Assembly (NCBI RefSeq): GCF_034092395.1
Contig: NZ_CP139301.1
Location: 1,302,001-1,366,000 of the forward strand
DNA from: Prochlorococcus sp. MIT 1307
Lineage (GTDB): Bacteria; Cyanobacteriota; Cyanobacteriia; PCC-6307; Cyanobiaceae
Reading direction: 5' to 3'
Length of the DNA stretch: 64,000 nucleotides
Positions 15,540-55,674 of the stretch are shown here, piece by piece (the first letter of the stretch is position 1; every line of letters starts with the position of its first letter). Under the pieces are notes generated by a model that made no database searches, had not been told where the DNA came from, and worked only from the letters and a program-made list of their open reading frames with translations. The translations under genes and the position numbers were made by a program.

Positions 15540-18014
15540 ATGGCCGAGGAGCGCCTACAGCCAATTTCCCTGCATCATGAAATGCAGCGCTCATACCTCG
15601 AATACGCAATGAGCGTAATCGTTGGGAGAGCTTTACCTGATGTGAGAGACGGCCTTAAACCAGTTCAAAGACGCATCCTTTTTGCGATGTATGAACTTGG
15701 ACTTACGCCAGATCGCCCATATCGAAAATGTGCTCGAGTAGTAGGAGATGTTTTAGGTAAATATCATCCACACGGTGATCAAGCAGTCTATGACGCACTT
15801 GTCCGACTAGTTCAAAGTTTTTCAAGCCGTTATCCAATCCTTGATGGACATGGAAATTTTGGATCTGTAGATGACGATCCTCCAGCAGCAATGAGATATA
15901 CAGAAACCAGACTGGCATCAATAGCTCATCAAGCATTACTCAACGAAATTGGCTCCAAAACTGTAGATTTTACTCCTAACTTTGATGGATCTCAACAAGA
16001 ACCCAGCGTTCTTCCTGCTCAATTACCTTTTCTTCTCCTAAATGGTTGTTCAGGCATTGCTGTTGGAATGGCAACCAGTATTCCTCCACATAATCTGAAC
16101 GAAATCATCAATGGAGTAATTGCGTTAATTAAAAATCCTCAACTATCAGATGAGCAGCTATTAAAAATAATTCCAGGACCAGACTTTCCGACAGGTGGAG
16201 AAGTTCTTTTAGGTACTGGTGTTCGAGAAACATATATCAAAGGTAGAGGAAGTATTCCCATGAGAGGCTTAGCACATATAGAAGAAATTCACCCTGGAAA
16301 AGGAAAACACCGTAGAAGTGCAATTATTATTACTGAATTACCTTATCAACTTAGTAAAGCCGGTTGGATAGAAAAATTGGCAGAGCAAGTTAACGAAGGA
16401 AAAATCAATGGAATTGCAGATATTAGAGATGAAAGTGATAGAGAAGGAATGAGAATAGTCGTTGAGCTCAGACGTGATAGTGAACCAAACAAAGTTTTAA
16501 CTGACCTACAAAGAAGAACTGCACTACAAAGTAATTTTGGAGCAATACTTTTAGCTCTAGTTGATGGACAACCAAAGCAACTATCACTCAAATTATTGCT
16601 TGAAAAATTTCTTGAATATAGAGAGTTAACACTGATTAGAAGAACCCAATATTTACTTACAAAAACTTTAGACCGTTTAGAGATTGTAGAAGGATTAACT
16701 AAAGCATTAAAAAATTTAAGGCCTATAATAACAACGATAGAAAACGCTAAAGATGCATTAGAAGCAAAAGCAAAGCTTGTCATCGAATTAAAAATAACAG
16801 AAAAGCAAGCAGAAGCTGTTTTAGCAATGCCTCTCAGGAAGTTAACCAACCTTGAACAAGCAAGTCTTTATAAAGAAATCAAAGAATTGATAGAGAATAA
16901 AAACCGCCTAGAATTATTACTGAAAAACAGAACACAACTTCTAGAAACTTTAATTAAAGAGTTAAAGCAAATAAAAAAACAATTTGGTAATCCAAGACGA
17001 ACTCGACTAGTAGAAGGAGGAGATAAACTATTAGCAGACAAAATTGCGCATCAAAGACCTAATGCTGAGCTCCAAAGACAACAAGCATATGCTGGCTTAC
17101 CACATGAAGGAAGATTACTCATTCAAAATGATAATCAGGTAAAAATAGTAAGTCCCCAGATTCTTGGAAGACTTCATTTAAATGAAAGTTGCGTACTTGG
17201 CGAAGAACCTGCACCTGCAAGATTGATATGGCCTATAGAAGCCAAACCAAAAATATTAGCAATCACAAAAACAGGACGAGTCGCATTAGTTAAATGGGAA
17301 TTTGCTGGCCAACAACCTGGCCTATTAGAGAAATTCCTACCAGGTGGTTTAGAAGGTGAAACCATAATAAATTTAATTCCTTTACCAGCAAATGAAAGCC
17401 TAAGTCTCGGCTTATTAAGTAGCGATGGAAGATTTAAAAGAATTCCAATAGAAGAAGTACTAGAGCTCTCTGGAAGAGCAGCGACCGTTTTAAAACTCAA
17501 AAATGGAGTAATGCTGAAAGCTGGTTTTATATGTCATCCAAATGGTGAAATAGCAATTTGCACTTCCTATGGAAGAATATTAAAGCTTTTAGTTAATGAA
17601 AAAACAATGCCTTTAATGGGAAAGTTAGCGCAAGGTCCAATAACGATGAAACCCTTTCCAGGGGAAGTAATAATAGGAGGAGTATCATGGAAAAACAGTC
17701 CTGAAAATCAATTAGTTATAATAACCAAGTATGGACAAATAAAAAAAATCAATCTTAATTATCTAAGACAATGTGAACGTGGAGATATTGGTGAAATCTG
17801 CATAAATCTCAAAAAGTCAAAAGATCTTATAGACGAAGTAGTAGATGCCTATGACAGCAAGCTATTAGGAAGTATTATCAGTAGCAAAGGTAGAAATGCT
17901 AGATTAAGTTCTAATCAGTTGAACAATGAAATTATTAATAATTTTATTCAATTAAAAGAAGATGAATATATTCAAAAAATTATTCCACTCATTGAACCAG
18001 AAAAAATATCATGA
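15540..18014 (+). CDS. Type IIA DNA topoisomerase subunit A (GyrA/ParC family)
   Basis: The protein has 824 residues. The breakage-reunion domain shows [17 protein letters not shown], the helix-turn-helix region with [12 protein letters not shown] and the active tyrosine near residue 119 in [10 protein letters not shown]. The long coiled coil (about 340-490) and a C-terminal beta-propeller follow. I do not see the canonical GyrA box (QRRGGKG-like) that gyrase needs for wrapping; the corresponding part reads [10 protein letters not shown]. That would fit a ParC/topoisomerase IV role, though cyanobacterial annotation often calls it GyrA. The 3' end overlaps the convergent purF by six bases. Confidence 0.93.
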
Positions 18015-19466
18015 CAAATATTCTCGCTCTACCCAGTCTAAATACTCATCTGTAACCGTTCCAGTAACATATTCACCAGTAAAACAAGATAAATCAAGTT
18101 CAGATACAATAGATTTTTTAATAATAGAGTTCTTTAAGTCTGGCACTTCTTGATAAATCATTTGATCAATAGACAATTTTTCTTCAATCTCTGAAATTGT
18201 TCTATTATGGGCTATTAACTCAGCTCTACTAGGCATATTAATGCCATAAACATGTGGAAATCTAACTGGTGGTGCTGCTGAAGTAAATATCACTTTATTC
18301 GCCCCAGAAAACCTTGCCATTTGGACAATTTGTTTAGAAGTAGTTCCTCTAACGATTGAATCATCTACTATTAAAATATTTTTATTTTTAAATTCTGTTC
18401 CCATAGCATTTAATTTTTGTCGAACTGATTTTTTTCTTTGTAATTGTCCAGGCATAATAAATGTTCGACCAATATAACGATTCTTGAAAAAACCTTCACG
18501 ATATTCAATACCTAATTGACGAGCAACCTGCATCGCTGCTGGTCGAGATGAATCAGGTATAGGCATTACAACATCTACTTCGCCAGATGAAATATGTTTT
18601 TTTATAGTTTCTGCTAAAGAGTCACCCATACGTAATCTTGCCTCATAAACAGAAATTCCATTCATAATGGAATCCGGACGTGCTAAATAAACATACTCAA
18701 AAGAACATGGAAAAAGCCTTGGATTATCAGAGCATTGTTGAGAATAAAATTCACCATTAGAAGTTATAAATATAGCTTCTCCTGGTTCTACATCTCTAAC
18801 AATTTGATAGTCATTGTTCTCTATTACTAATGATTCACTAGCCAAAATCCAATCTACTTTGTTGGATGAATTAACTTTTTTACCAATCACTAATGGGCGA
18901 ATACCATATGGATCCCTAAAAGCTAAAATTCCATGACCTGCAATTAAGGCGATAGCTGCATAAGAACCTTGAATTCTTTCATGCATAGACTTAACTGCAT
19001 TAAAAATATATTCAGGACAAATATCTCTTCCAGAAATTTGTAATTGTAATTCTGTTGCTAATATATTTAAAAGCATTTCAGTATCACTAGTAGAATTAGT
19101 ATGTCTTCTATCTTTAATAAAAAGATCTTTTTCTAATTCTCGAGTATTAGTAAGGTTCCCATTATGAACAAGAATAATTCCATATGGAGCATTTACATAA
19201 AATGGTTGTGCCTCTTCTTCCCTATCTGCAGCACCTTTTGTCGCATATCTGACATGACCTAAACCTATATTACCTTTTAAGGCTCGCATATCTCGAGTTC
19301 GATATGCTTCACGCACCTGACCTTTTGATTTACGCAAATGAAATACACTGCCATCCATGGTTGCAATTCCTGTTGAATCTTGACCACGATGTTGAAGTAA
19401 CAGCAAACTGTCATATATTTGCTGATTAATTTGATCTTTAGCAAGAACTCCAACTATTCCACACAT
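18009..19466 (-). CDS. purF: Amidophosphoribosyltransferase
   Basis: First committed enzyme of purine synthesis, making 5-phosphoribosylamine from PRPP and glutamine. The protein (485 residues) starts MCGIVGVLA, giving the N-terminal nucleophile Cys after Met removal. The Ntn glutaminase half has [11 protein letters not shown] and HVRYATKG; the phosphoribosyltransferase half has [10 protein letters not shown] and the PRPP loop [15 protein letters not shown]-terminal [11 protein letters not shown] segment matches the Fe-S-binding type found in Bacillus. It follows purL by 56 bases on the same strand, and probably shares its transcript. Confidence 0.96.
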
Positions 19467-19522
19467 TTAAAATCCATCTCCATTATTAATAAAGTCCAAA
19501 AAAGATAGATATAAAAAATTAA

Positions 19523-21955
19523 TCACGAGAAAATCTCCTTTTTAGAATTAACTCGACGAGGAATCGCACTCTCAAAAGAATCTCTTAAGCCTTTGAGAGA
19601 TAAGCGAATAAGCTCATGTTCACTCTGAGTAATCAATAGTTCACTCTCTAATTGAACTGTTCCTATTTTAGTAGCAGAAAGTAATACTGAATCCTTTTTA
19701 TTAACTTCACTGACAAATGTCTTCCAGGCATTCTCTTTATTAGAATCAATACTTACAATTATACGAGCACCACCTTCAGCAAAAAGCAGTCTATCTAAAC
19801 GTACTTTACTATTAGGAAGATAACAATAAGCACCTAGATCAGATGTCATACAACATTCTGCAATAGCAACAGCAATTCCTCCATCCGAGACGTCATGAGC
19901 AGAAAGAATATAACCATCTATAATTGCTTTACGTAAAAAAGCTTGGGTTACTTTTTCTAATTCCAAATCAATCTCAGGTGGCCTACCAGTTGACAATTCA
20001 TGTATTACTTCAAGATAGCTGCTAGCTCCTAAAGTGATGCGTGGATCTAATATATTATTTATCTCTAAAGGTAAGCCTAGAAGCCAAATTGAATCACCTG
20101 GATGCTTCCAGCCTTGTCCACAAATCAAATCTAAATCATTTACTAATCCAACCATTCCAATTACAGGAGTTGGATGTATAGGTTGTAACTTACCATTAGC
20201 TAGACGAGTCTCATTGTATAAGGAAACATTTCCTCCTGTTACAGGAGTTTCTAATATTTGGCAAGCCTTAGTTATACCTTCACAAGCTAAAGCCAATTGC
20301 CAATAACCAATAGAAGTATCTGGAGAAGCAAAATTTAGATTATTAGTAATCGCTAAAGGTTCAGCCCCTACACAACTTATATTTCTAGCAGCTTCAACAA
20401 CAGCTGCAACAGCTCCTCTCTCTGGATCAAGAGATACCCAACGATTAGGACAATCAACTACAGCAGCAATTCCTCTCTTTGAAGACTCAAGAGATTTATT
20501 CCCATCTTGAGGTCGTATTCGAATTATTGCAGCATCTGAAATACCAGGAGATAAAACAGTATTAGATTGAACCTGATAATCATATTGACGATAAACCCAT
20601 CGTTTAGAAGAAATTGTTGGATAATCCAAAAGTTTTAAAATAACCTCATTCCAAGTTAATTTTTGATTTAATCTTTTGTCTAGATTAATTCCAACTTTAG
20701 AAAATTGAGGTAAGTCTTTCTCATTCCAATTCCAATGTTCTTGAATATATAGCGGAGGTTCTTCTAGTAAATCATGATAATTAATTGGTGTATCATCAGC
20801 TAAAGCATTAGCTGGTAATTCAGCAACTACAGAGCCTTTATGTAAAACACGAACAATATTTTCTTTAAGAACTTTACCTACAACAGAAACATGTAATCCC
20901 CATCTAGTAAAACAATCCTTTAATTCATTTTGACAATCAGGTTTTACAACAAAAAGCATTCTTTCTTGAGATTCAGATAGTAAAAATTCATAAGCAGTCA
21001 TGCCTTTTTCTCTAGCAGGAACTAAATCAAGATTTAATTCAATACCTAAACCTCCTTTTGCTGCCATCTCAGAACAACTACAAGTTAAACCAGCAGCACC
21101 CATATCCTGAGCAGCAACTACATAACCACTTTTGAAAGCTTGAAGACAAGCTTCTATTAAACCTTTCTCCAAAAAAGGATCACCAACTTGAACTGCAGGG
21201 CGATCATCTAAAGAAGATTTTGTAAGTTCAGCACTAGCAAAACTTGCCCCTCCCATACCATCACGCCCAGTAGTACTACCGACATACATAACTGGATAAT
21301 CAATCCCGTCTGCACCTGAACAAACAATTTTTTCGGTTTCCATTAATCCAAGAGCCATAGCATTAACTAATGGATTACCTGAATAACTTGTATCAAAAGA
21401 AACTTCACCACCAATAGTTGGAACACCTACACAATTTCCATAATGTGCTATTCCTGCTACCACTCCTTCCATTAAAGAAATATTATGTTCATCATCAATA
21501 GGACCAAATCTTAAAGAATTTAATAAAGCTATAGGTCGTGCACCCATAGTAAAAATATCACGAAGAATTCCTCCTACACCAGTTGCTGCTCCTTGAAAAG
21601 GTTCTAAAGCAGAAGGATGATTATGACTTTCTATTTTAAAAGCTAATTGTTGACCTTCACCTATATCAACAACACCTGCATTTTCTCCTGGTCCAACAAG
21701 AATTCTTGATCCTTTAATTGGAAAATTTTTTAATAGACTCCTTGAGTTTCTATAACAACAATGTTCTGACCACATCACACCAAACATACCAAGTTCTGTT
21801 CGATTAGGTGGTCTATTAAGACGTCTACATATTTCTATATAATCCTCTTTTTCTAAGCCTTCTTCTTCTATTGCTAAAGAAACATCATAAGAAACCTTAA
21901 ACAAAGGACTTTCAATTAACTTTTGAAAGTTGATGTCTGAGAAATTTATAGACAT
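19523..21955 (-). CDS. purL: Phosphoribosylformylglycinamidine synthase II
   Basis: The small (PurQ/PurS-dependent) form with 810 residues. It amidates FGAR to FGAM with ATP in purine synthesis. Two AIRS-like halves are visible: the first with [25 protein letters not shown] and [18 protein letters not shown], the second with [10 protein letters not shown]-like and [15 protein letters not shown] motifs. [15 protein letters not shown] is also typical. The gap to the PRC-barrel gene upstream is three bases, so dnaN, the PRC gene, purL and purF form a compact run. It needs PurQ and PurS, which are not in this window. Confidence 0.96.
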
Positions 21956-21958
21956 AGA

Positions 21959-22747
21959 TTAAATCCAAGGATCATCCTGTTCTTCAAGACTTTTTATAGA
22001 GCTTGAAGAATATGGGAGTTCTTCAGAAGAGTCTAAATCATCCTTAGATTCTTCATCTCGGAAGTTATCATTCCAATCATCTAATGGATCCACATCAAAA
22101 GTACTTTGTATAGGTGATCGATATGGAGTGCGTTCTTCCCATGGAGGTTCTTCAAGCCAACCTTCTAATTTATTTCCTGCCTTATCTGTTAATACTTGAA
22201 ATTGTTCTTTCCAACCACGTGAACGTCTTAAAATGTCTTGACGAATACTAGAACGAGCTATAGGTAAATCATCTAATGACTTGATATTAATAGAAACCAA
22301 ACCAGGTTGTTGATCAAGAATACGATCAATAAATAAACGCCATCTACTAGTTCCTGGAATTCTTGGATCAGTACGTGAAACTAGATAATGAAGAATATTT
22401 CCACTTTTAGAATCAAAAACCAAATCAACTATAAATCCTATTACATCCCCATGTAAATTTACTATATCTGAATTTAATAAAGTAGGAATCCTATCAAGTG
22501 TAATTTGATCATGGATAGAAGGTTTACCTTTTACAAAAACTTCAGTAGTAGCTATGCCTCTTAATTGATCTAACCTCCAAACATGTCTAGATAAATTCAA
22601 ATGCGAAGGACGAGAAGACCAACCTAATAAGCGATGAACTGGAGGATGCATCCAAGCCATTAAACCAGGTCCATGGTCTAATCCTTGATCACATCTCACA
22701 CGATGTTTTAAAAGGTCACTTAATAATAATTTTTCAGATAAAGTCAA
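21959..22747 (-). CDS. PRC-barrel domain protein between dnaN and purL
   Basis: A protein of about 262 residues. Two PRC-barrel-like modules are seen, the first around LLGWSSRPSHLNLSRH and the second around LHGDVIGFIVDLVFDSKSG with KSGNILHYLVSR. The last 60 residues are acidic and Ser-rich. PRC barrels occur in RNA-processing (RimM) and photosynthetic proteins; the function here is unknown. The position is conserved in marine picocyanobacteria as the gene after dnaN (recall, not shown here). The start is probably TTG 22747, two bases after the dnaN stop, with no better codon near by. Confidence 0.75.
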   Translation of the reverse strand: MTLSEKLLLSDLLKHRVRCDQGLDHGPGLMAWMHPPVHRLLGWSSRPSHLNLSRHVWRLDQLRGIATTEVFVKGKPSIHDQITLDRIPTLLNSDIVNLHGDVIGFIVDLVFDSKSGNILHYLVSRTDPRIPGTSRWRLFIDRILDQQPGLVSINIKSLDDLPIARSSIRQDILRRSRGWKEQFQVLTDKAGNKLEGWLEEPPWEERTPYRSPIQSTFDVDPLDDWNDNFRDEESKDDLDSSEELPYSSSSIKSLEEQDDPWI

Positions 22748-22749
22748 TT

Positions 22750-23916
22750 TTAAGTACGTACTTGGACTGGCATAACTAAATAAGTAAAGCTTTGATTTTC
22801 ATCTAAAGGCAACAATACAGCTGGAGTTGTTGGTCCATTACAACATAAATTAATTGAATCTGAATCAATTGCTTTTAGACCCTCTAAAAGATATCTAACA
22901 TTAAACGCTATTTTAATAGAATCACCTGTAAATTCTGCAGGAATAGATTCAGAACCACTACCAACATCCTGAGCATCTGCAGTAATGTGTATTTCTTGAG
23001 AATTAATTTCTGTACTTATTTTGATAACATTATTATGCTGATCAGCAAGAACAGCAATTCTTTCCAAAGCAGAAATAAATATTCTACGATCTAATATAAT
23101 TGATTTTGAAAAACCTTCTGGAATCAATTGATTATAATTTGGATAAATACCTTCCAGTGTTCTACTAGTAACAACTTGATCAGAAGCCAAAAAGACAACT
23201 TGACCTTTATCACAAAAAAGACTTACAACAGCATCACTTTTCCAACCAGATATTAACCTCTCGACTTCTTTAAGAGAACGTGAAGGTAAAGTTACAGCAA
23301 AAGTTGAATTTTCATTCAAAGATTGTTCATCAAATGAAGAATCATTATCTAATGCATCATTAATATTCAGTACTGCTAGACGATGTCCATCAGTTGCTGC
23401 TGCTTTTAAAGACTTTCCATCAAAAGCTAAATGAACTCCAGTTAATAATTGCTTAGCTTCATCAGAGCTACTTGCAAAAAGGGTACCTCGAAGAGATTTT
23501 AAAAGAGCTTGAGCCTTGACTTTAAAAGATGTACCACTTTCAACTAAAGGGAGCTCCGGAAACTCATCAGCAGACATTCCTCGCATTTGGTAATTACCGC
23601 CCTTACTTTTTAATTCAACTTGTTCATTATCACCATCAAATATCAATGCAACCGGTGATTCATTGGATAATTTAGAAACAATTTCTCCAAATAACCTTGC
23701 TGGTAAAGTAATAGCTCCACTTTTTTCTACTGAAGCAGCAAAAGAAGTCTGAATACCAAGGTTAAGATCAAAGCCAGTAAGGCTTAAACGACTAGTTCCT
23801 TCATCAGCAGTAAGTAAAACATTTGCCAGTACAGGATGCGTTGGACGTGAAGCAACCGCTCTACTTACAAGCTGTAGAGCAGTATTGAGTTCAATCTGAG
23901 AGCAAATGAGTTTCAC
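22750..23916 (-). CDS. dnaN: DNA polymerase III beta subunit (sliding clamp)
   Basis: The ring-forming processivity clamp, 388 residues, with three repeats of the clamp fold. It begins KLICSQIELNTALQLVSRAV and ends LVMPVQV, typical family features; FKVKAQALLKSLRGTLFASS and AATDGHRLAVL mark the second domain. The start codon is GTG. dnaN is the first gene left of the gap proposed as oriC and is transcribed away from it, on the leading strand. dnaA is not adjacent, as is normal for cyanobacteria. Confidence 0.97.
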   Translation of the reverse strand: MKLICSQIELNTALQLVSRAVASRPTHPVLANVLLTADEGTSRLSLTGFDLNLGIQTSFAASVEKSGAITLPARLFGEIVSKLSNESPVALIFDGDNEQVELKSKGGNYQMRGMSADEFPELPLVESGTSFKVKAQALLKSLRGTLFASSSDEAKQLLTGVHLAFDGKSLKAAATDGHRLAVLNINDALDNDSSFDEQSLNENSTFAVTLPSRSLKEVERLISGWKSDAVVSLFCDKGQVVFLASDQVVTSRTLEGIYPNYNQLIPEGFSKSIILDRRIFISALERIAVLADQHNNVIKISTEINSQEIHITADAQDVGSGSESIPAEFTGDSIKIAFNVRYLLEGLKAIDSDSINLCCNGPTTPAVLLPLDENQSFTYLVMPVQVRT

Positions 23917-24120
23917 CGAGTCAACCTAACGATAAAACGAAGGGAAAGTCAGCTTACGTTTTCAGCTCAGGTTTTTCAATACAAGAATTCTAAAATCATT
24001 ACTTTCTACTGTTTTTTCTAATTTTTGAAAGAATTAAATAAAAGAGTAGTAGTAGGTGTTGAGGAATTCTAGGAAAACTAAAAAATCCCTTGTTGGAACT
24101 TGTGTTTCGGATAATTCGTC

Positions 24121-24129
24121 TGTGGAAAT
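24121..24129 (-). promoter_or_regulatory. DnaA-box-like site 1
   Basis: The + strand reads TGTGGAAAT, so the complement is ATTTCCACA, one mismatch from the cyanobacterial DnaA box TTTTCCACA. It lies in the dnaN-thrC gap. Confidence 0.55.
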
Positions 24130-24141
24130 CTCTATTGAAAT

Positions 24142-24150
24142 AGTGGAAAA
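24142..24150 (-). promoter_or_regulatory. DnaA-box-like site 2
   Basis: The + strand reads AGTGGAAAA, complement TTTTCCACT, one mismatch from TTTTCCACA. It has the same orientation as site 1 and begins 21 bases, or two helical turns, after it, just before the T-rich tract. Confidence 0.55.
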
Positions 24151-24218
24151 TTATCTTGAATTTTATTCTTTTTTTCTATTTGTACTTTTTTTAGATTTTT
24201 ATTGATCTTTTTCAGTGT

Positions 24219-24227
24219 TTTTCCTCA
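24219..24227 (+). promoter_or_regulatory. Weak DnaA-box-like site 3
   Basis: TTTTCCTCA on the + strand, one mismatch from TTTTCCACA but at a core position, and in opposite orientation to sites 1 and 2. It lies at the far side of the T-rich tract. On its own it would not be convincing. Confidence 0.3.
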
Positions 24228-24255
24228 GGGATGATACCCCTTTTTGGCTTGATTT

Positions 24256-24290
24256 CCTCAGACAGAAAAACTTTTGTCTAAGGTTTTTTT
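24256..24290 (+). terminator. Intrinsic terminator reading on the + strand inside the origin gap
   Basis: CCTCAGACA (24256-24264) pairs with TGTCTAAGG (24275-24283) with one G-U pair across a 10-base loop; seven T follow at 24284-24290. This is a good intrinsic terminator for a + strand transcript, yet no + strand gene ends here; thrC and dnaN are both on the minus strand. In the minus direction the stem is followed by AAATC and not by a T run, so it is a poor terminator for thrC. Confidence 0.6.
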
Positions 24291-24301
24291 GTTGCTTATC
24301 T

Positions 24302-25378
24302 TCAAAATCCCATTGTTTTAGCAACAGTTTTAATTTCAGGATTCAGTCCTGAATAAAAAGCAGCATCATTATTTTTAATTGCACAATCTGGATCTTTTAA
24401 TCCATTTCCAGTTAAAACACAAACAATAGTGGAGCTTTCTGGAATTTCTTCTTTACGTTTCAATAATCCTGCAACTGATGCAGCACTTGCAGGTTCACAA
24501 AATATTCCTTCTTCTTTTCCTAATATTTTATATGCATTAATTATTTCTTCGTCTGTTACATCCAAAAAGCTTCCTTTACTATTCTTTTTAGCGGCTAAAG
24601 CTTTTTCTTTATTAACTGGATTACCAATTCTTATTGCTGTAGCAATTGTTTTGGGATTTTTAATTATCTTATTAAAAACTAAAGGAGCAGATCCACTTGC
24701 TTGAAAACCCATCATTTTTGGTAATTTATTAGATTTTCCAGCTTGAAAATATTCTTCAAAACCCATCCAATAAGCACTAATGTTTCCTGCATTTCCCATT
24801 GGAATACATAGCCAATCGGGAGCATCATTAAGTGATTCAATTATTTCAAAAGCTGCTGTTTTCTGTCCATGTAATCGAAAAGGGTTTACAGAATTAACAA
24901 GTGTTATTGGATATTTTTCTGCCATTTCTTGAACAATATCTAGCGCACAATCAAAATTTCCTTTTATAGCTAATACTTCTGCTCCATAGACTAGTGCCTG
25001 CGCGAGTTTTCCCTGTGCTACATATCCATCTGGAATCAGTACAAATGCTCTCATTCCTGCTCTTTTTGCATAAGCTGCGGCAGAAGCAGAAGTATTCCCA
25101 GTGCTTGCACATATAACAGCTTCACACTTTTTTTCTTTTGCTTTGCTTATTGCCATTGTCATACCTCTATCTTTAAAAGACCCTGTTGGATTTAATCCGT
25201 CGTATTTTGCATATACCTTGATATCTTTCTGAATTAATTTTTCTATTGCTTTGATTCGAATTAATGGTGTTGCACCTTCCTTAAGTGTAATAACAGGTGT
25301 ATTTTCATTAACTGGAAGCCAATCTTTATAGGCTTCTATTAAACCTGGCCAGTTTGGAGTGAGTGATGATGAGGACAT
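24302..25378 (-). CDS. thrC: Threonine synthase
   Basis: A PLP enzyme of 358 residues converting O-phosphohomoserine to threonine. The PLP lysine lies in NPTGSFKDRGM near residue 70; the phosphate-binding Gly-rich loop GNAGNISAYW and ASTGNTSASAAAYA are also present. The length matches the shorter class of threonine synthase found in plants, cyanobacteria and many Gram-positives. It is the first gene right of the putative origin but is transcribed towards it, so it lies on the lagging strand. The gap to the next upstream gene is 52 bases. Confidence 0.95.
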   Translation of the reverse strand: MSSSSLTPNWPGLIEAYKDWLPVNENTPVITLKEGATPLIRIKAIEKLIQKDIKVYAKYDGLNPTGSFKDRGMTMAISKAKEKKCEAVICASTGNTSASAAAYAKRAGMRAFVLIPDGYVAQGKLAQALVYGAEVLAIKGNFDCALDIVQEMAEKYPITLVNSVNPFRLHGQKTAAFEIIESLNDAPDWLCIPMGNAGNISAYWMGFEEYFQAGKSNKLPKMMGFQASGSAPLVFNKIIKNPKTIATAIRIGNPVNKEKALAAKKNSKGSFLDVTDEEIINAYKILGKEEGIFCEPASAASVAGLLKRKEEIPESSTIVCVLTGNGLKDPDCAIKNNDAAFYSGLNPEIKTVAKTMGF

Positions 25379-25430
25379 GGATACTTTTAATCTTGTGTTA
25401 GGTAATGATTAATTGATGGTTATAGTCTAT

Positions 25431-26012
25431 TCATATCTTTGTTTTAGTGCTTTGAATACCTTTTAAAGGTGAATTTGAGAAAAATTCGATTAATTCAGAC
25501 ATGGATTCTACTTTGTTTAATACTTTAAACAGAGCAGGGATATTAATTGCTATTGTTTTGTTTGGATAAGATTTAAAAAATTGTATTAAATTTATTTTTC
25601 CTTCTCCCATTACTATTCCTTTTATTACGCCAGAACGAATAGCAGGAATAGATATAGATTGATCTTTTATTTTTTTTGGATGTATAATTTTTGCTATTCT
25701 AAGTATAATTACTTTTCCTATACTGCTGTACATTAATTTAGTAGTAACGACTAATGGAAGTTCAAAATTCTCATTTAAAATTTTTGAAATCTCTTCTTCT
25801 GATTGATTTGTTAATTTAATGATATTTTTTAAGGTTCCTTTGGCTTTTCCAGTATTAGCTAAATAATCTAGTGAATCTACAGAAATTGTACGACTAAAGA
25901 TTCCATATTCAAGGGATAAAGCTTCAGCTGATTTTGCTGATGGAAATGTTATTAAAAGGTTCATCGATAAGCCTAAAAACAATCCAACTAAATTCAATAC
26001 TTTATATTTCAT
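25431..26012 (-). CDS. DUF1400 family secreted protein
   Basis: A protein of 193 residues with an N-terminal signal peptide (VLNLVGLFLGLSMNLLITF, then SAKSAEA). The mature part begins LSLEYGIFSRTISVDSLDYL and continues with helical sections containing FELPLVVTTKLMYSSIGKVI and a late KTIAINIP. This pattern matches DUF1400, a cyanobacterial domain normally found at the N-terminus of putative alpha/beta hydrolases. The hydrolase part is absent here, so the protein seems to be DUF1400 alone and its function is unknown. Its ATG directly follows the stop codon of the ABC1 kinase gene, so the two are one transcript. Confidence 0.75.
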   Translation of the reverse strand: MKYKVLNLVGLFLGLSMNLLITFPSAKSAEALSLEYGIFSRTISVDSLDYLANTGKAKGTLKNIIKLTNQSEEEISKILNENFELPLVVTTKLMYSSIGKVIILRIAKIIHPKKIKDQSISIPAIRSGVIKGIVMGEGKINLIQFFKSYPNKTIAINIPALFKVLNKVESMSELIEFFSNSPLKGIQSTKTKI

Positions 26013-27890
26013 TTATTGAGGTACTCCTGCTGCTACTTTGATTAAACGAATAACACTTTTTTCTGTTATTCCTTTTGCTACTTTGATTCCCATTTTGCGT
26101 CCTTCTGGCTCTTGAATAATTCTTGGTATATGTTTCAATATAATTTGTATTTTAAAGCCTGGTAGGCTTTTAACAATACCTATTAATTCTTTTATAGGTG
26201 CTTGTTTAAGTAATAATAATTTTTTCTTTTCTTTCAAATTTTCTCGAATACCTATTCTTCTAGACCTTAATATTTTTGGTAATCTTCCATTTAATTTTTG
26301 TATTGAATTCCAACTTATAGCATCCATTTTTCTGACTATTATTTCTACAATTTCTTTTCTTAGAATTCCACCATTTTTAGAAAATAAGAAATCTAATATT
26401 TGTTCTATTAAAATTTCAATATTTAAGTCTGCTTGGCTGCCAGCACTTTTAATTAATCCTTCTAGGTTATTCCAGCTTAGAACTTTCCCATCAAAAATCA
26501 TTTCCTTTAAACTTTGACGTAATTGTGGGTCTGGATCTTCCATTAATCTTTTTGCAAAATATGGATATGCTGCGCCAAGAATTTTGAAATCTGGATCTAC
26601 ACTTAACGCAATGCCTTCTAATGTGATTAAGGATCTAATAATTAAAGCATAATATGGTGGAACTCTAAAAGGGAATTTGTACATTACATTTGAGAGATCA
26701 TCCGTAACTACTTTAAAGTCTAATTTTTTTACTCCAACTTCAAGAGCTGTAGTAAATACACTTTCAAAAGCAGGTATGATTGGTTTTAGATCAACATCCT
26801 TTGCTAAGAAGCCTAATTCCACAAAATCTTCTGAAAGCTTATTAAAATTTCTATTTACTAAATGAACGACAGCTTGAATCAGTCCAATCCTTGATTCTCG
26901 TGTCACTTCACTCATCATTCCAAAATCTAAATAACATAATCTTCCATCATTTAATGCTAAAAGATTACCAGGGTGGGGATCTGCATGAAAAAATCCATGC
27001 TCTAATAATTGTTGAAGACTACAATTGACGCCTATTTCTACCATTTCATCTGGGTCAATACCTAAGTTTTTAACTGCTTTTAAATTCGTTAATTTAACGC
27101 CTTCAATCCATTCCATGGTTAATACTCTTCTACTTGTAGCTTTTTTATAAATCATAGGAACAGCTATTTTCAAGTTTAATTTATGTAAATTTTTAAATCT
27201 TTCTGCATTAGCTGCTTCATTAAGGTAATCCATTTCTTCAAAAACTCTCTTACCTAGTTCATCAATTAAAGCTACTAAATCACTTCTTATTAATTTTATG
27301 TTTTTGTTCAGCCATAATGCGATATTTCTTACAATGTATAGATCCAGTGTTATTTGTTCTCTTAATCCAGGTCTTTGTACTTTGACTGCAACTTTTTCTC
27401 CTGTTCTTAGAGTACCTTTATGAACTTGTCCTAAAGATGCTGCTGAGATTGGTTCTTTATCTAGATTTTTGTATATTTCTTCCACAGATACTCCTAAGTC
27501 TTCTTCAATACATGCCATAGCTAATTCACCATCAAATCCAGGTAATTGATCTTGAAGTTGTGCCAGTTCTTCCAAGACTACTTTTGGAATAATGTCTGGC
27601 CTAGTAGATAAGGCTTGGCCACCTTTAATAAAAGCCGGTCCTAGTTCAACAAGCAGTTCTGTGAATTCTTTAGCTCGTGACTTAGCTTTATCCTTATTAT
27701 TTAATTGTCCAGTATATTTATCTATTAATACTCCTACTAGAAACAAACCTATTGGTATTAATGTTTGCCACAGTCTACGTAATAAACGTAATGGATGTCC
27801 TTTGTAGATATTAGTAATCGTTTTTGGATCATATTCGAGTAACCCTGCGGCCTCGATGAAATCACTTAGTTCTTCTGCCATAGGCATCAT
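26013..27890 (-). CDS. ABC1/AarF/UbiB-family atypical kinase
   Basis: The protein has 625 residues. The Ala-rich loop is AASLGQVHKG, the nucleotide Lys lies in VAVKVQRPGL, and EEMDYLNEAANAERF, FHADPHPGNLL and YLDFGMM give the other catalytic motifs of the ABC1 family. In cyanobacteria and plastids such proteins regulate quinone, tocopherol and lipid metabolism; in others UbiB assists ubiquinone synthesis. A hydrophobic segment near residue 38 may bind the membrane. The C-terminal third is helical and not family-specific. It is divergent from recN, and DUF1400 follows immediately. Confidence 0.9.
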   Translation of the reverse strand: MMPMAEELSDFIEAAGLLEYDPKTITNIYKGHPLRLLRRLWQTLIPIGLFLVGVLIDKYTGQLNNKDKAKSRAKEFTELLVELGPAFIKGGQALSTRPDIIPKVVLEELAQLQDQLPGFDGELAMACIEEDLGVSVEEIYKNLDKEPISAASLGQVHKGTLRTGEKVAVKVQRPGLREQITLDLYIVRNIALWLNKNIKLIRSDLVALIDELGKRVFEEMDYLNEAANAERFKNLHKLNLKIAVPMIYKKATSRRVLTMEWIEGVKLTNLKAVKNLGIDPDEMVEIGVNCSLQQLLEHGFFHADPHPGNLLALNDGRLCYLDFGMMSEVTRESRIGLIQAVVHLVNRNFNKLSEDFVELGFLAKDVDLKPIIPAFESVFTTALEVGVKKLDFKVVTDDLSNVMYKFPFRVPPYYALIIRSLITLEGIALSVDPDFKILGAAYPYFAKRLMEDPDPQLRQSLKEMIFDGKVLSWNNLEGLIKSAGSQADLNIEILIEQILDFLFSKNGGILRKEIVEIIVRKMDAISWNSIQKLNGRLPKILRSRRIGIRENLKEKKKLLLLKQAPIKELIGIVKSLPGFKIQIILKHIPRIIQEPEGRKMGIKVAKGITEKSVIRLIKVAAGVPQ

Positions 27891-27962
27891 GGCTTTAGTT
27901 TTAGTACCCCTTCTAAACCACGCTAAGACCCGCTAGCCTTTATTTGGCTATTGGTACTTTCA

Positions 27963-54458: not shown

Positions 54459-55484
54459 TTAGGCAGCTTGTTGATGATTAGTCATTACTCTTAGTTTCAG
54501 AATCGCTTTGGCTTCTAATTGCCTGACTCGTTCTCTAGAGACATTTATTTGACGCCCAATTTCAGCCAAGGTTAAGGGTTCTTCTCCATCCAAACCAAAA
54601 CGTAATCGCAAGATCTTTTGCTCTCGTTCATTTAATTGAGATAACCAGCCACCTAAATGTTCTTTTTGAATACTTCGGTCCATTCCTTCCATAGGTTCTC
54701 CACAACTAGGATCAGGAATCAATTCTCCTAATGTACTGCGATCTTCTTCTCCTCTTGCATGTGCATCTAATGATGCACATGGTGCACTTTGAGCTACTAG
54801 ATCTTCTAAATCTTGGGGTTCAATTCCCATTGCATGAGCAAGTTCCAAGCGGTTTGGTTGGCGACCAAATCGATGAGACAGTTCTCTGGAGATGCGTCGC
54901 ATCTTAGAAAGCTTCTCACTGATATGAATAGGCAGTCGAATAGTACGTGCACTATTGTCAATAGCGCGTGTCATGCCTTGACGGATCCACCAATAAGCAT
55001 ATGTAGAAAATTTATATCCCATTGCAGGGTCAAACTTGTCCACAGCTCTTTCAAGCCCAATAGCACCTTCCTGAACAAGATCTAATAGCTCTAAACCTTG
55101 ATTTTGATATTTCTTTGCCACGCTTACTACTAAGCGAAGATTAGCAGCCATCATTCGATCTCTAGCTCGTTTCCCCATACGAATTTGATGCCGTTGACGT
55201 GGATTTTGTTCTTCTAGGGGTACTTCCAATAATTTTTTCATTTTCTGAACGTGGTGAGCGAGTTCTATTTCTTCAGCTGGTGTGAGCAGTGGAACTCTTC
55301 CGATGCTGCTTAGATAAAAACCAATCGCATCAGTCCCTAGTCGGCCACCAGTTCGTTGGTGATTACGAGAGCCGTTCCCTCGTCGATTACTTTTTTCTCC
55401 ACGCTGTTTCTTTGTTGATGGCAACACAGCTTCTGGTGATTGTGCACTAGAAGTACCCTGTGTAGATTCCAGAGGGATCCCCAT
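54459..55484 (-). CDS. RNA polymerase sigma-70 family factor, cyanobacterial group 2 type
   Basis: About 341 residues. Region 1.2 reads AIGFYLSSIGRVPLLTPAEE; region 2 has NLRLVVSVAKKYQNQGLELL, DLVQEGAIGLERAVDKFDP and FSTYAYWWIRQGMTRAI; region 4 includes LTLAEIGRQINVSRERVRQL. The first 50 residues are basic and have no region 1.1, so it is likely a group 2 (SigB-E-like) factor rather than the main SigA. Group 2 factors are involved in stress, light and circadian responses. ATG 55484 follows a GTG. The gap to ppk is 190 bases. Confidence 0.93.
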   Translation of the reverse strand: MGIPLESTQGTSSAQSPEAVLPSTKKQRGEKSNRRGNGSRNHQRTGGRLGTDAIGFYLSSIGRVPLLTPAEEIELAHHVQKMKKLLEVPLEEQNPRQRHQIRMGKRARDRMMAANLRLVVSVAKKYQNQGLELLDLVQEGAIGLERAVDKFDPAMGYKFSTYAYWWIRQGMTRAIDNSARTIRLPIHISEKLSKMRRISRELSHRFGRQPNRLELAHAMGIEPQDLEDLVAQSAPCASLDAHARGEEDRSTLGELIPDPSCGEPMEGMDRSIQKEHLGGWLSQLNEREQKILRLRFGLDGEEPLTLAEIGRQINVSRERVRQLEAKAILKLRVMTNHQQAA

Positions 55485-55674
55485 CACCCTGGCCTCCTAT
55501 ATTTAGATTTGGCCGGAATTTAGCACTTAAAAAGGATAGTAGACATAACAAATTGGAAATCTTTCAGTAACCCTTGAAAAATATCAAAAATTTCTCAATA
55601 GCACTTAGGTAAGAATACAGTCAAAAAAACGAATTTGATAGTGGAAGATGAGGATAATCCTAGTCAGACTTGAA

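Follow-up and report, generated by a model that had tools for sequence, protein, structure and literature searches.

A dnaN-thrC intergenic region as the very probable chromosome origin of Prochlorococcus sp. MIT 1307

The DNA analysed here (the window, 64,000 nucleotides) spans bases 1302001-1366000 of the single-contig genome of Prochlorococcus sp. MIT 1307 (2,032,419 bp). Within it, a gap between dnaN and thrC occupies positions 1,325,917-1,326,301 of the record, ~0.7 Mb from dnaA. By dnaN similarity, the relatives of this genome are Prochlorococcus single-cell genomes (74-81% identity), and thrC lies upstream of dnaN on the same strand in 72/80 related loci, the 8 without this order including contigs cut near dnaN. 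An earlier note, made from the sequence alone, had described the gap as free of genes, and no convincing ORF was indeed found within 23917-24301. An Rfam search of the region found no RNA, and promoter and terminator scans of it gave hits at chance level only. The features of the locus, in window coordinates, are as follows.

22750-23916, minus strand: dnaN, DNA polymerase III beta subunit (sliding clamp), GTG start; Pfam PF00712, PF02767, PF02768
23917-24301, no strand: intergenic region, very probably oriC, 385 bp, 30% G+C, with dnaN on its 5' side and thrC on its 3' side
23983-24043, no strand: AT-rich stretch immediately past the trios, where unwinding probably starts, from sequence and duplex energy
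24044-24055, minus strand: DnaA-trio array CTACTACTACTC (complement 3'-GATGATGATGAG-5'), (near-)invariant across the 14 sequences of an unanchored alignment
24056-24059, minus strand: spacer of 4 bp, ACAC, separating box from trios (at the GC-rich spacer position), from anchored loci
24060-24068, minus strand: trio-proximal DnaA box AATTCCTCA, 3 mismatches from TTTTCCACA; relatives have GTTTCCTCA or GTTTCCACA at the same place
24069-24077, minus strand: second tandem DnaA box TTTTCCTAG, 3 mismatches from TTTTCCACA; relatives have TTTTCCACT/C/G/A at this place
24121-24129, minus strand: DnaA box ATTTCCACA, 1 mismatch from TTTTCCACA, from a scan
24142-24150, minus strand: DnaA box TTTTCCACT, 1 mismatch from TTTTCCACA, from a scan
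24157-24201, no strand: T-rich tract, least stable duplex of the gap, 41.9 kcal/mol per 40 bp
24219-24227, plus strand: DnaA-box-like TTTTCCTCA, 1 mismatch from TTTTCCACA, opposite orientation, from a scan
24302-25378, minus strand: thrC, threonine synthase (PLP enzyme); Pfam PF00291

The cyanobacterial DnaA box TTTTCCACA adjoins dnaN (PMC4674748), and a dnaN-linked cyanobacterial oriC is defined by adjacency to dnaN together with boxes of this type (PMC4674748, PMC6323995). The MIT 1307 gap adjoins dnaN and carries TTTTCCACA-type boxes that are near-consensus only; there is no exact TTTTCCACA between dnaN and thrC, and the best boxes are one mismatch off. Nonetheless, the 385-bp gap has three 9-mers that differ from TTTTCCACA at no more than one position, versus 0.27 expected from dinucleotide shuffles (P ~0.0015), an above-chance cluster of near-boxes of the kind that marks a bacterial oriC, with exact boxes absent. 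Two of them, in the same orientation and 21 bases apart on the minus strand (24121-24129 and 24142-24150), are the pair already reported in the earlier note, as is the T-rich tract at 24157-24201; of the 63900 100-mers in the window, only 162 are less stable than the one at 24125. In the unanchored alignment, the ATTTCCACA box aligns with a near-invariant TTTCCACA of relatives and the inverted TTTTCCTCA site with GTGGAAAA or GGGGAAAA, while the TTTTCCACT box has a counterpart at the matching position in three loci (L049, L051, L053).

Box count alone is no proof of an origin, because a second 385-bp stretch of the window, near 54.7 kb, also has three near-boxes. These lie at 54696-55080 inside a sigma-70-family gene (54459-55487) and are probably a chance occurrence in coding DNA. 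Counting exact TTTTCCACA across the genome also failed as a locator: the 9-mer is not enriched (31 matches, backward control 35), and it is absent from the gap. One intergenic site at 627.0 kb (G000:C1:626959-627022; L129:959-1022) holds two exact TTTTCCACA 11 bp apart plus a third copy within one mismatch; an open frame that weakly matches 2OG-Fe(II) oxygenases begins ~0.1 kb further on. The exact-box pair may be a site of DnaA regulation or titration; it was rejected as an origin, there being no composition switch at that place.

The best element in the gap is one that the earlier note did not contain. On the minus strand at 24077-24044, a pair of weak DnaA boxes in tandem is followed, across a 4-bp spacer, by 3'-GAT-5' DnaA-trios (TTTTCCTAG-AATTCCTCA-ACAC-CTACTACTACTC). 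Read toward dnaN on this strand, the gap presents the inverted near-box, the T-rich tract, TTTTCCACT, ATTTCCACA, the box-trio module, the AT-rich stretch and dnaN itself. Within the AT-rich stretch, the duplex free energy of the 40-mer at 23997-24036 is 43.2 kcal/mol, compared with 47-53 for other 40-mers, the T-rich tract excepted. The box-trio module is laid out as in the basal unwinding system (BUS), in which tandem DnaA boxes are separated by a spacer averaging 4 bp from 3'-GAT-5' trios (PMC8287927). The published search program for such systems allows at most 2 box mismatches and a spacer of at most 16 bp (PMC8287927). In MIT 1307, CTACTACTACTC (24055-24044, minus strand) provides the requisite three or more DnaA-trios (3'-NAN-5', consensus GAT), and the trios lie 4 bp from the proximal box and 13 bp from the second. 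Both boxes, however, are 3 mismatches from TTTTCCACA, beyond the limit of 2 that the program sets for the better box against the species box, so the published rule would not call this module. As judged from sequence, it is BUS-like by position and homology.

In the unanchored alignment (window plus 13 relatives), no other well-conserved part of the gap is as long as this module, and the layout of two boxes, a 4-bp spacer and trios recurs at 72/81 dnaN loci. Across the 72 loci of the anchored table, the box-trio spacer is 4 bp in 71 and 3 bp in one, and the better box is within 2 mismatches in 66; the search pattern fixed part of the core in this table, and conservation of those letters is not independent. 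Independent tests come from the unanchored alignment and from the compact pattern TCCTCANNNNCTACTACTAC, which occurs once in the MIT 1307 genome (window 24046-24065, minus strand) and likewise, a single time each, in 24 further genomes of the family out of 300, none of which has its backward control. Other Prochlorococcus and marine Synechococcus loci share the layout, with TTTCCACA or TTTCCCCA as proximal box, and the trios become mixed in many Synechococcus loci. The remainder of the boxes is less constant than the trios and the proximal-box TCC.CA core, and the module as a whole is kept across marine picocyanobacteria. The proximal box of the window (24068-24060) reads TCCTCA rather than TCCACA or TCCCCA, as it does at L049-L055, L067-L069, L072, L076 and L081; by sequence comparison, box position 7 has changed in a lineage-specific way, in the genus of the window and in some neighbouring Prochlorococcus. 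One family genome (G077:C1:11-30) has this box-trio module at the very start of its contig, and its depositors probably numbered that record from this origin.

The earlier note had argued for a C-to-G switch across the gap from single 60-base lines in two minus-strand genes, and its counts are exact (purL G10 C18; purT G14 C9); single lines proved unrepresentative, however, and the excess of G over C claimed for purT is not borne out by the whole gene (G196 C217). The minimum of raw cumulative GC skew lies outside the gap, at 27938, because genes change strand at that point; raw skew was rejected as a locator. Cumulative AT skew turns at 23947. A change-point analysis of fourfold degenerate sites, in which plus- and minus-strand genes had their own base frequencies, gives the switch strong support and places its best position in the window at 24350 (2*logL gain 386), with a 2-log-unit support interval of 23850-24800 that brackets the gap. 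The coincidence of the raw minimum with the orientation flip might suggest that the switch merely reflects gene orientation or a local inversion, with boxes arising by chance, yet the switch persists among minus-strand genes alone, those at 18009-23916 (four, including purL and dnaN) differing at fourfold sites from those at 24302-27890 (three, thrC first; P = 2e-13). It also matches one of only two switches genome-wide, and the module is conserved between species. The strand-controlled, genome-wide and conservation tests thus refute this explanation, which we regard as vanishingly improbable.

The genome-wide test combined 40 sampled 20-kb stretches with the window (about 100,000 fourfold sites, 5-kb bins). 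A skew switch elsewhere had been named beforehand as the finding that would count against an origin here; the best pair on the circle consists of 1.325 Mb, the dnaN-thrC gap, and 0.335 Mb, nearly antipodal and leaving arms of 0.99 and 1.04 Mb, as expected of a bacterial oriC with its roughly antipodal second switch. By maximum likelihood, 1.325 Mb is the sole 5-kb bin within 5 log units, and support for the partner covers 0.310-0.340 Mb. The leading strand has relatively more G and T. The second strand-composition switch (G000:C1:310000-340000) is probably the replication terminus. The same data bear on placement of the origin at dnaA (record start, base about 1), with the dnaN gap being only a DnaA-regulated dnaN promoter. 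DnaA boxes can indeed serve in transcription regulation, and contig base 303 is where dnaA begins, in keeping with a common numbering convention. With a switch forced at base 0, the 2*log-likelihood gain falls to 1081, from 1624, and the gap (1.33 Mb) is still the best partner; strand bias is alike on both flanks of dnaA, and the trio module next to dnaN occurs nowhere else in the genome. An origin at dnaA is extremely unlikely in light of these results.

The initiator expected with a bacterial oriC is present: an intact DnaA is encoded (460 aa), with N-terminal, AAA+ and HTH domains (PF11638, PF00308, PF08299). Its full length bears against a third explanation, in which the gap is a historical origin with leftover skew, its boxes decaying, and initiation is now DnaA-independent or multi-site, as in Synechocystis PCC 6803. 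DnaA-independent replication arose repeatedly in cyanobacteria (PMC7198777), and the 3 mismatches in both trio-proximal boxes, with no exact box left, would fit such decay. DnaA-independent species have irregular skew (PMC7198777), however, whereas the switch at the gap is sharp and two-armed; the trios and the TCC.CA core are kept, and boxes elsewhere in the gap are within 1 mismatch. This explanation is very unlikely. There is a slim chance that, the trio-proximal boxes having drifted, opening relies instead on trios plus distal boxes, or on a relaxed recognition by DnaA; if true, the locus would be intermediate between DnaA-dependent and DnaA-independent cyanobacterial replication.

We conclude that the dnaN-thrC gap is very probably the single bidirectional chromosome origin, with DnaA presumably opening it via the box-trio module. 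The location, the single two-armed strand-composition switch, the conserved module and the intact DnaA were all computed here. The earlier placement of oriC in this gap gains support from the genome-wide switch, the module, the intact DnaA and the published dnaN/threonine-synthase location. Binding, unwinding and helicase loading are modelled on B. subtilis and S. elongatus. By this analogy, DnaA would bind the box cluster of the gap and then assemble from the tandem boxes (24060-24077) across the 4-bp spacer onto the trios (24044-24055), where its filament would stretch one strand open. The adjoining AT-rich DNA (about 23983-24043) would be opened by DnaA, with helicase loading next, and forks would travel in both directions to the terminus near 0.31-0.34 Mb of the record. 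Locating the origin matters for leading/lagging-strand and growth-rate (peak-to-trough) analyses of this genome, which is numbered from dnaA, ~0.7 Mb away.

Three known systems resemble the locus most closely. The oriC of Synechococcus elongatus PCC 7942 lies near dnaN at a GC-skew shift point and is DnaA-dependent (PMC7198777, PMC8287927), and S. elongatus DnaA unwinds its box-plus-trio element in vitro (PMC8287927). Both origins sit beside dnaN with dnaA elsewhere, and both have a skew switch, TTTTCCACA-type boxes and a box-plus-trio unwinding element, but 7/11 repeats match the consensus in PCC 7942 (PMC4674748), whereas MIT 1307 has no exact box and at best one mismatch. With the BUS of Bacillus subtilis oriC (DnaA boxes 6/7 plus DnaA-trios), the module shares two tandem boxes, a spacer of about 4 bp, 3'-GAT-5' trios and an AT-rich flank; unlike that system, its boxes are each 3 mismatches from the cyanobacterial consensus, and it is not beside dnaA. 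The 3-mismatch trio-proximal boxes are the one oddity of an otherwise already-known kind of oriC. Published work assigns Prochlorococcus origins to the gap separating dnaN from threonine synthase (PMC2836286). In picocyanobacterial records, numbering has been started 174 bp before dnaN, taken as the approximate origin (PMC7522525). Compared with the predicted Prochlorococcus oriC (PMC2836286), the gap, its flanking genes, the skew switch and the nearby DnaA boxes are the same and nothing essential differs, the MIT 1307 record being numbered from dnaA rather than dnaN. Both the location and the type of unwinding element are already known; the gap is almost certainly where chromosome replication begins in MIT 1307, an ordinary oriC, now firmly located.
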